Positions 17,933 to 20,998 of a stretch of DNA of 64,000 nucleotides are shown piece by piece; position 1 is the first letter of the stretch, and every line of letters starts with the position of its first letter. Where the stretch lies: the NCBI RefSeq assembly GCF_031127875.1, contig NZ_JARXIA010000002.1, positions 124,001 to 188,000 of the forward strand, written 5' to 3'. Source of the stretch: Pelagicoccus sp. SDUM812005 (GTDB lineage: Bacteria; Verrucomicrobiota; Verrucomicrobiia; Opitutales; Opitutaceae). The notes beneath the pieces are model-generated. The model was not told the origin of the DNA, searched no databases, and was given only the letters and a program-made list of their open reading frames with translations. Both the position numbers and the translations under genes were made by a program.

Positions 17933-19237
17933 TCAAAAGTCCTGCAAAGCCCCCTGGCCAAGCGGGCTTTCTTCGTAAAACCGGTCCCAAATTTCTCCGA
18001 TCAGATAGATCGATCCGCTCACCACCAGCGGTCGACCGGCCTCGAAATCGAGGGAGCACTCCCCTTTTCGGGGAAAAAGATCCGCCAGCTTCGCATCGGA
18101 AACTTCCCCTGCGAAATCCGCCGGCACGAAGGAACGCAGCTCCTCGAAGCTACAGGCCCTATCCTGCTCCGGCCGGACGAAGCAAAGGCTGTTCGCCCAC
18201 TTCGCCGCTACAGGCACCAAGGCGGAGGCCCGGTAGCCGCCCATGACCCCCATCACCACGTCCGGCCGCGCTCCGCCGCTTCGCTTCACCAAGTCCGCCA
18301 GGCTCTCGTCCAGCCAGCGAGCCCCTTCCGCGTTATGGGAAACGTCGAAAACGACCTTGCGGTGCCGCAGCTGGCGTTCCTCCCACCTTCCAGGCCAGGC
18401 AACAGCCTGCAGGCTTTTCTCGGCCTTCTCCCGATCCAGGCCGAAACGGCCTTGCACCCCCTCCACCACAGCAAGAGCGATCGCCGCGTTGATGCGCTGG
18501 TAGCTGCCGTAAAGATTCGTTTCCGGGTACCGCGACAGGTCCTTGCCGAAGCGGTCCGCCACGCAAACCAGCTCGCACCCCCGCTCTTCGCAAATCTCGC
18601 GAATCGCCTCCAAGGCCTCCGGCTCCAACAAGCCAACCACCACCGGCACGCCGGGCTTGATGATCCCGCCCTTCTCCCGGGCGATCGCCGCCAAGGAGTC
18701 GCCCAGGATCTCGCAATGGTCCAAGGCGATCGAAGTGATCACGCTCACCTCGGGAACCAACACGTTGGTCGCGTCCAAACGCCCCCCGAGCCCCACCTCG
18801 ACCACCGCAACATCGACCTCCTCGCGAGCGAAGTGCAGGAAAGCCATCGCCGTCATGAACTCGAAGAAGCTAGGATGCAGCTCCGAATCCTCAAGAGCCA
18901 CCCTTGCGGCGAAAGGCAGCAGCTCGCGCACGTAATCGAGAATCTGCGACTCCTCCAGGATCCGTCGATTCACCTGAATGCGCTCCCCTTGCCTCACCAG
19001 ATGGGGCGAGGTCGACAGGCCGGCTCGGAAGCCCTGGTCGCGGAAGATCCGCTCCAGCATGGCGCAGGTCGAGCCCTTGCCGTTGGTGCCGGCCACATGA
19101 ATGCAAGGGAAGCGACGCTGCGGATGGCCCAAGACCTCCGCAAAGCGCTCCATGCGGTCGATGCCGTACTTCGAGCCCCGATTCTTAAGCGAATACAGCC
19201 AATCGCGGGCAGCCTCGTAGGAAACTAGATCAGGCAT
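17933..19237 (-). CDS. folC: Folylpolyglutamate / dihydrofolate synthase
   Basis: 434 aa Mur-ligase-like ATPase that adds glutamate to folates and probably also makes dihydrofolate. The P-loop HVAGTNGKGSTCAML is near residue 47, SPHLVRQGERIQVN near 81, and TSIALDHCEILGDSLAAIAREKGGIIKPG near 165 (conserved His and Lys-containing loop). The C-terminal domain holds VVFDVSHNAEGARWL. ATG at 19237. No partner gene adjoins it; a REP-like repeat separates it from accD. Confidence 0.94.
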   Translation of the reverse strand: MPDLVSYEAARDWLYSLKNRGSKYGIDRMERFAEVLGHPQRRFPCIHVAGTNGKGSTCAMLERIFRDQGFRAGLSTSPHLVRQGERIQVNRRILEESQILDYVRELLPFAARVALEDSELHPSFFEFMTAMAFLHFAREEVDVAVVEVGLGGRLDATNVLVPEVSVITSIALDHCEILGDSLAAIAREKGGIIKPGVPVVVGLLEPEALEAIREICEERGCELVCVADRFGKDLSRYPETNLYGSYQRINAAIALAVVEGVQGRFGLDREKAEKSLQAVAWPGRWEERQLRHRKVVFDVSHNAEGARWLDESLADLVKRSGGARPDVVMGVMGGYRASALVPVAAKWANSLCFVRPEQDRACSFEELRSFVPADFAGEVSDAKLADLFPRKGECSLDFEAGRPLVVSGSIYLIGEIWDRFYEESPLGQGALQDF

Positions 19238-19333: not shown

Positions 19334-20194
19334 CTAAGCCTGGGTCGGCTCCTTCTTCACGTAGAGAGCCGCCAGCAGGTCACGCAGCCGATCCCGCATT
19401 TCCGTACGCGGAACCACTTGGTCGATCAAGCCGCGCTGGAAAAGAAATTCCGCCGACTGGAAGCCTTCCGGCAGTTCTTCGTTGGTCGTTTCCTTGATGA
19501 CTCGAGCTCCCGCGAAACAGATACGGGCGCCGGGCTCCGCGATGATGACATCGCCCAAGGTCGCAAAACTCGCCGTGACGCCGCCCGCGGTGGGGTCGGT
19601 CAAAACGGAAATGAACGGCAGCTTCGCCTCCGAAAGGCGTCCCAAGGCCGCGCTAGTCTTCGCCATCTGCATCAAGCTCAGGATCCCCTCCTGCATGCGA
19701 GCGCCGCCGGAAGCGGAAACCACGATGCAGGGAATCTTCTCCTTGATCGCCAACTCGATGGCGCGGGTGATCTTCTCCCCAGCAACCGAACCGAGCGAGC
19801 CGCCGGCAAACTGGAAATCGAAAACCGCGATCGAAACGGGAATGCCGTGGATCTTGCCCACGCCGCTTACGATGGAATCGTTCTCGCCCGTCTTCTTCTG
19901 GTAGGCCGCCAGGCGCTCAGGGTACGGCTTGGAATCCACGAACTCCAAGGGGTCGCCCGCGCACAGGTCCTTCTCCAGCTCGGTAAAGCTCCCCTCGTCC
20001 AGCAAATGGGAGATCCGCTTGCGAGCGGTGATGGGAAAATGGTAGCCGCTCTTGGGAACCACGTTCTGGTTTTGCTCCAGCTCCTTATTGTAGATGATGT
20101 CGCCGGAAACGGGACATTTCTTCCACATGCCGTGCGGAATGTCCTTCTTCTTAACGATTACGGTCGAGTACTTCGGTTTTTGGAAAAGCGCCAT
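19334..20194 (-). CDS. accD: Acetyl-CoA carboxylase carboxyltransferase beta, zinc finger lost
   Basis: 286 aa beta subunit of the carboxyltransferase that makes malonyl-CoA for fatty acid synthesis. Core motifs are intact: [53 protein letters not shown] and [20 protein letters not shown]. The N-terminal C4 zinc finger, which uses Cys27, 30, 46 and 49 in the E. coli protein as I recall it, here reads CPVSG and VVPKSG: Cys27 remains but positions 30, 46 and 49 are Ser, Val and Ser. Zinc binding should be lost. The alpha subunit is not in the window. ATG at 20194. Confidence 0.95.
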
Positions 20195-20242
20195 GGTGAT
20201 TGAGCAATGGGTTTGAAAATGAGGCGGGATCGCCGAAACGGG

Positions 20243-20980
20243 CTATCCGTGCCCTATGGTCAGGACGTCTATCGCCCGAGCTCCCGCGCGTCGCAGAGCT
20301 GCGGCGCACGCATTGACAGTGGAACCTGTGGTGAAGACGTCATCTACAATAATATAGCGTTGGGCCGGGTCTATGGCACGCTTTTGGCGCAATGAAAAGG
20401 CATTTTTGAGGTTCCGGATCCGCTGCTTCCGGTCGAACTGGGTCTGGGAAACCGTATCGACGCAACGCTCCAGCAAAGCCTCCAGACGGCAATCCGGCAG
20501 GATTTCCAGCAACTCGCGAGCGAGCAATTCGCTCTGGTTGTAGCCGCGCTCGCGCAGCTTGCGGGGATGCAAGGGCACCGGCACCAAGGTCGCCCCCGCC
20601 GCAAATCCAGTCAAGCCGGGAGCCCTCCGCCCCAGCTCGCGAATATCCCGCAAGGCCCACAGCCCTCCCTTGTACTTGAGCGCGTAGATCAATTCCCGCA
20701 CCGGCCCGCGAAACAACGCGATCGACCAGCCCTGGCCAAACGCGGGCTGCAAGTGCTCGCAGTGCATGCAATGCGTATGCGACTCGGTATCGCCGAAAAA
20801 CGGGAATCCGCAGGTCAGGCACTTGGGATCCTCGATCAGCTGCAGGCGCGGCACGCAAGCCCCGCACACTCCCGAAAAGCGCGAACCGACCACCGCCTCG
20901 CCGCATCCGGCGCATTGGCTGGGGAAGGCGGTTTCCAGCGCGGCGTCGAAGGAACGGCTGATCAATCGGGATAAACTCAC
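20243..20980 (-). CDS. comF: ComF family phosphoribosyltransferase-like protein
   Basis: 245 aa from the GTG at 20980; a TTG two codons upstream (20986) is the alternative, and neither has a clear ribosome site. It has an N-terminal double zinc-ribbon (CAGCGE, CGAC, CLTCGF, CMHC), ALKYKGG, VPVPLHPRKLRERGYNQ, and the PRPP loop IIVDDVFTTGST near residue 210. The family is linked to DNA uptake (ComFC) and DNA metabolism; the precise reaction is not known. It ends 48 bases before accD. Confidence 0.9.
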   Translation of the reverse strand: MSLSRLISRSFDAALETAFPSQCAGCGEAVVGSRFSGVCGACVPRLQLIEDPKCLTCGFPFFGDTESHTHCMHCEHLQPAFGQGWSIALFRGPVRELIYALKYKGGLWALRDIRELGRRAPGLTGFAAGATLVPVPLHPRKLRERGYNQSELLARELLEILPDCRLEALLERCVDTVSQTQFDRKQRIRNLKNAFSLRQKRAIDPAQRYIIVDDVFTTGSTVNACAAALRRAGARAIDVLTIGHG

Positions 20981-20998
20981 GGACAAAAAGGGGGATAC

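Follow-up and report, generated by a model that had tools for sequence, protein, structure and literature searches.

The window studied here, a 64,000 nt stretch of a contig of Pelagicoccus sp. SDUM812005, carries an accD gene, coding for the beta subunit of acetyl-CoA carboxylase carboxyltransferase, in which three of the four cysteines of the zinc finger are gone. This raises the question of whether the ribbon can persist without zinc in an enzyme that still works and, if so, what has taken the place of the metal. A review states that the finger of the E. coli protein is required for catalysis, and also describes mRNA binding by E. coli AccD (PMC3896788); for plastid accD, another publication relates that deletion of the motif abolished activity (PMC2488346). 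Since the finger is reported to be needed in E. coli and in plastids, an active zinc-free AccD is not a given, and would be informative.

The encoded protein scored 386.4 bits against TIGR00515 (AccD), over the curated cut-off of 317.45, and its nearest solved relatives were the AccD proteins of E. coli (E about 3e-89) and S. aureus. The alignment with E. coli AccD showed no gaps through the finger and placed C27, S30, V46 and S49 at the four ligand positions; the same residues and the same ungapped alignment had been described in an earlier, sequence-only reading of this DNA, and both the codons (Table 1) and the alignment bear that description out. The C-x2-C ... C-x2-C pattern of the PF17848 family (Zn_ribbon_ACC) was absent, and the score for this family was 14.2 bits, below the cut-off of 24.5. 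From their translations, the neighbouring genes are presumably related to folC (17933-19237) and comF (20243-20986). Three matches to PF01039 were found in the genome, the window AccD being the sole AccD-type protein among them; the locus at C53:45254-45982 aligned with positions 229-477 of the PF01039 profile, its AccA-like part, and was assigned by us to AccA. With a single AccD-type match in a genome that is 99.5% complete, and with the gene retained in 57 of the 63 Opitutales genomes sampled, the window AccD is expected to be active.

Table 1. Position of accD, its zinc-ribbon region and the codons of interest in the window.
Feature	Coordinates	Strand	Basis
accD, acetyl-CoA carboxylase carboxyltransferase beta subunit, 286 aa	19334..20194	-	ORF, TIGR00515, E. 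coli alignment
Zinc-ribbon region, residues 23-57, three of four cysteines gone	20024..20128	-	Codons, alignment, pLDDT
Residue 27, codon TGT (Cys), ligand position 1 kept	20114..20116	-	DNA reading
Residue 30, codon TCC (Ser), ligand position 2 lost	20105..20107	-	DNA reading
Residue 46, codon GTT (Val), ligand position 3 lost	20057..20059	-	DNA reading
Residue 49, codon AGC (Ser), ligand position 4 lost	20048..20050	-	DNA reading
First putative turn replacing a zinc knuckle, residues 28-31, P-V-S-G	20102..20113	-	Inferred turn role
Second putative turn replacing a zinc knuckle, residues 47-50, P-K-S-G	20045..20056	-	Inferred turn role

A protein search for AccD over 387 Verrucomicrobiota genomes gave a match in 383. 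Within the sample of 63 Opitutales genomes, AccD was read in 57 (the window's own plus 29 and 27), and all 57 proteins lacked three or four of the cysteines. Aligning the AccDs of its group was the check proposed in the sequence-only reading, which had also named a frameshift or a sequencing error as what could overturn it. Such an artefact, or a pseudogene, has next to no chance of being the explanation: the frame is open, the product exceeds the curated TIGR00515 cut-off, and the cysteine-poor state recurs throughout the order in 57 separate genomes. C30 was replaced by Ser or Thr in nearly all the Opitutales AccDs, C27 by Asp in some, and the second knuckle (residues 46/49) was gone in every one read. 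It was also missing in all 25 AccDs from additional Opitutales genomes chosen by their PF17848 score, a choice biased towards intact fingers. Two of these 25 proteins (L212 from G627 and L229 from G575) read C-C-V-S, retaining the first knuckle only, and are possible intermediates, or reversals.

Outside Opitutales, 324 Verrucomicrobiota genomes were searched and 53 AccDs were read, hand-picked from the approximately 160 best-scoring among the matches listed, so that low-scoring ones fall outside the sample. The first 33 (13 from the same class and 20 from the same phylum) all had the four cysteines, as did 19 of a further 20; the total was 52 proteins with four cysteines and one with three. 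This exception (L386, C-T-C-C) came from a genome of the same phylum (G300, family f30) in which only the first knuckle was broken, and carried P-G-T-G there. Among 80 named loci, the nearest 13 (L004-L016) were cysteine-poor; four cysteines were present in 66 of the 67 that remained, the exception being that of Fulvivirga (L040). The loss is order-wide as far as AccDs were read, and either knuckle can go alone.

Several side observations were made in these searches. C27, the one cysteine otherwise remaining, was replaced by Asp in 17 of the 93 distinct Opitutales AccDs, including L095, L097, L098, L100, L101, L107 and others of family f1, and in the six named a Tyr also replaced Trp24. The AccD of one Opitutales genome (G146) was cut by a contig end, while five others (G080, G149, G175, G304 and G342) gave weak matches only. 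Genus g38 of family f10, in the same class, behaved alike, its 23 genomes in the sample giving weak matches and none at the AccD level. The five Opitutales genomes and those of g38 are near-complete, and the best E values of their weak matches were 9e-21 to 7e-15, so that a different carboxylase may supply malonyl-CoA there.

The PF17848 score was also considered as a measure of zinc binding, and was rejected. The curated cut-off was exceeded in 148 of 273 Opitutales genomes (among the matches listed, the alignment ends at profile position 22/26), and many of these genomes pass although the AccDs read there lack the ligands. As ribbons without ligands pass the cut-off, assignment to this family does not indicate that zinc is bound, and the name Zn_ribbon_ACC is an annotation trap.

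Cysteine-poor AccDs were also found in two other phyla. In Bacteroidota, 148 genomes were searched, and the best-scoring 30 AccDs were read together with an even sample of 40 out of the remaining 118. The best-scoring 30 all had four cysteines; in the lower-scoring draw, 14 of 40 (among L240-L279) were cysteine-poor and fell into three replacement types, namely V-T-D-S or V-T-C-S (eight), S/T-gap-S-D (five; residue 30 is missing and an Asp occupies position 49) and D-T-S-S (one). For Pseudomonadota, 150 genomes were searched and the best 30 AccDs were read, plus 20 obtained by taking every fifth of the next 100 or so listed. Again, the best-scoring 30 had all four cysteines, as did 17 of the next 20. 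The remaining three were C-S-I-S (L332) and C-S-V-S (L335 and the nearly identical L336), the latter pattern being identical to that of the window. In the tree, L332 and L335 clustered with 100/100 support with two alphaproteobacterial AccDs, that of Shinella (L287), which is C-T-I-S, and that of Ruegeria (L286), which has four cysteines; Shinella and three relatives are the Alphaproteobacteria in which a cysteine-poor AccD was found. The sequence-only reading had held that a loss common to many phyla would count against it. This holds in part, the loss being present in three (Verrucomicrobiota, Bacteroidota and Pseudomonadota): it is not peculiar to the Opitutales lineage and, being order-wide there and repeated elsewhere, makes the single case less surprising than it first seemed.

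The number of origins was addressed with AccD trees built on 227 columns, from which the finger (residues 20-56) was excluded. The approximately unbiased (AU) test rejected a single clade of all cysteine-poor sequences (p 1.3e-78), a clade joining Opitutales and Alphaproteobacteria (p 3.6e-5), and a single clade for the ten Bacteroidota losses (p 0.0013). On these trees without the finger, the idea that a single cysteine-poor gene reached all the lineages by spreading is therefore rejected, and the state has had several origins. One clade was not rejected for the three alphaproteobacterial sequences (p 0.49), nor for the Opitutales AccDs (p 0.23), yet the careful free tree splits the latter. 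Opitutales probably lost the cysteines once, at its base. The careful tree required nine changes between states, some of them on weak branches.

The 330 aligned AccDs gave 313 distinct core sequences, 201 with four cysteines and 112 cysteine-poor (the 20 AccDs read later are excluded from these counts). The combination P28, G31, P47 and G50 was found in 95 of the 112 distinct cysteine-poor sequences and in none of the 201 with four cysteines; it was also absent from the 19 later-read four-cysteine AccDs from outside Opitutales. By group, it occurred in 78/93 Opitutales sequences and in 8/8, 5/6, 1/1 and 3/4 of the other cysteine-poor groups. Of the 17 cysteine-poor exceptions, 15 had three of the turn residues and two had two. 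Taken singly, P28 was present in 93, G31 in 87, P47 in 89 and G50 in 86 of the 93 Opitutales sequences; the corresponding figures for the 32 four-cysteine sequences of Verrucomicrobiota were 19, 11, 24 and 15. The second ligand of each knuckle was replaced by Ser/Thr30 and Ser49 in nearly all sequences, except in the type without residue 30: S/T30 was seen in 91/93 and S49 in 90/93 Opitutales sequences, and each was seen in 8/8 sequences of one Bacteroidota type and in 4/4 from Alphaproteobacteria. Two of the proteins that lost a single knuckle carried the turn residues in it, P28, T30 and G31 being confined to the lost first knuckle of L386, and P47, S49 and G50 being present in the lost second knuckle of L212. 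A test on independent pairs had four or five supported pairs, none of them contrary, although in some pairings one or two of them showed no difference; with correction for kinship, its p value cannot fall below 0.05. The cysteine-poor loops have converged on P-x-(S/T)-G ... P-x-S-G, which provides a sequence-based way of separating zinc-free from zinc-bound AccD.

A metal might still be held by other ligands: C27 or D27, S/T30, S49, H52, some acidic residues, or ligands contributed by AccA. In Opitutales, C27 was kept in 76 of the 93 distinct AccDs, the remaining 17 having Asp, and H52 was invariant (93/93). H52 was, however, equally kept in the four-cysteine AccDs (200/201), and is therefore no new ligand, and in the types found in Bacteroidota position 27 is occupied by V, S, T or D. 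The window AccD has eight Cys or His residues in all, of which H52 and C27 alone are widely kept; the others are not conserved in the finger, C156 (51/93 Opitutales AccDs) lying outside it. No conserved set of substitute ligands was thus found among the other Cys and His residues over the 93 distinct Opitutales AccDs, which makes binding through other ligands quite improbable and a zinc-free carboxyltransferase the best reading. The latter was what the sequence-only reading had proposed, and it is likely; the interpretation given there is, taken as a whole, partly supported.

The finger could also be decaying after losing its regulatory role in mRNA binding, in an enzyme that works without it. 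The loss of ligands in several lineages would fit with this, as would the mean net charge of the finger region in one Bacteroidota type (-2.0). In Opitutales, however, this region had a positive mean net charge (+1.6, compared with +0.8 in the four-cysteine Verrucomicrobiota) and retained H52. A loss of positive charge, which would have hinted that the finger had ceased to bind nucleic acids, was not seen there; a loss of such binding is not supported, and net charge would not argue against mRNA binding by the cysteine-poor finger. Further, with the ligand columns omitted, the ratio of the entropy of the finger to that of the rest of the protein was 1.08 for the 93 Opitutales sequences and 1.54 for the 32 four-cysteine Verrucomicrobiota, the four-cysteine Bacteroidota (56) and Pseudomonadota (47) giving 1.49 and 1.44. 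Measured against the rest of the protein, the Opitutales loop is therefore more tightly constrained than its four-cysteine counterparts, which indicates no decay. Together with the confident modelling of the loop described below, this renders decay an improbable account, though slightly less so than binding through other ligands.

An AlphaFold2 model of the window AccD, made with 38 relatives, had a mean pLDDT of 88.4, and the blocks covering residues 21-60 had means of 84, 91, 93 and 95; these values come from a method that leaves out the metal and is inclined to return the fold typical of a family, and from a run without a four-cysteine control. In VIA-align comparisons, the model matched S. 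aureus 2f9i_B (Z 38.8, rmsd 1.4, 260 residues), E. coli 8uz2_H (Z 38.4, rmsd 1.4, 260 residues) and E. coli 2f9y_B (Z 37.2, rmsd 1.6, 254 residues). The aligned ranges on 2f9i, 8uz2 and 2f9y, reported by their first and last residues only, begin at residue 20 or 23. The model is consistent with the ribbon fold of residues 23-57 having been kept.

The reading that best accounts for these results, and which we consider probable, is that the window AccD is a working carboxyltransferase subunit, its ribbon having kept fold and position without zinc and its knuckles having given way to Pro-x-Ser/Thr-Gly turns. The ancestral Cys-x-x-Cys knuckles would be short turns pinned by zinc; both would have been replaced by turns able to hold themselves, which would fix the loops mechanically. 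Pro and Gly would set the backbone of the turn, and Ser or Thr would cap it. Carboxyltransferase activity is predicted to be retained with the zinc-less ribbon. The window protein is then likely to be a known enzyme in zinc-free form, the interesting part being the convergent exchange of zinc for turns. No published report of the loss of the zinc ligands of AccD was recognized in the literature searched, whose coverage left out most subscription journals; entries for such AccDs in protein databases may already note the lack of zinc.

The cause of the change might lie in a lineage-wide economy of zinc, a proposal compatible with the zinc-free ribbon held by turns. Ribosomal proteins L31, L33 and L36 exist in zinc-free (C-minus) forms, and the genome's L31 (G000:C24:56666-56899), L33 (G000:C31:115185-115337) and L36 (G000:C24:56934-57056), each the sole match in the genome, all lacked the zinc-binding cysteine pairs (CxxC). 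With this L36 as the query, and with the matches judged by score only, E values were 4.5e-16 or lower in all 63 Opitutales genomes, with values of 3.2e-10 or weaker, or no match, in the remaining Verrucomicrobiota genomes other than those of family f10. The latter family scored like Opitutales (E ≤3.6e-14), yet the one AccD read from it (L153, from G243) has four cysteines. The two traits are therefore not strictly linked; zinc economy is weakened as a strict explanation and serves as a lead, rather doubtful as it stands. In a broader proposal, a little less doubtful, the finger of acetyl-CoA carboxylase may have a second, zinc-independent stable state, reached repeatedly by swapping zinc for turns knuckle by knuckle, and fixed in Opitutales alongside zinc-free ribosomal proteins as one aspect of a reduced need for zinc or of a resistance to cadmium and other thiol-reactive metals. 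A study of S. pneumoniae reports AccD in a peak enriched in cadmium and interprets this as an indication of mismetallation (PMC7678824). An AccD with few cysteines should be less prone to it. The lineages without ligands offer natural tests of which role of the finger needs zinc.

Compared with the four-cysteine AccDs of known structure (E. coli 2f9y and 8uz2, S. aureus 2f9i and Chloroflexus 9m70), the window AccD is the orthologous enzyme, similar in length and fold (53-54% identity and Z 37-38 with that of E. coli), and differs in that three of the four zinc ligands are replaced and P28, G31, P47 and G50 occur together. The cysteine-poor AccDs of Bacteroidota and Alphaproteobacteria (14 among L240-L279, plus L040, L287, L332, L335 and L336) have lost the same ligand positions, and most share the P-x-S/T-G and P-x-S-G turns with Opitutales. 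They differ in their independent origin, as indicated by the AU tests for both groups, and those of Bacteroidota also differ from the window protein in the residues at positions 27 and 46. The loss of zinc ligands has been described for treble-clef domains (PMC4999995). In these domains and in the C-minus ribosomal proteins L31, L33 and L36, although they are different proteins, a fold formerly stabilized by zinc persists after the ligands have gone, as would be the case in the AccD studied here. Unlike these ribosomal proteins and the treble-clef cases, AccD is a core metabolic enzyme.
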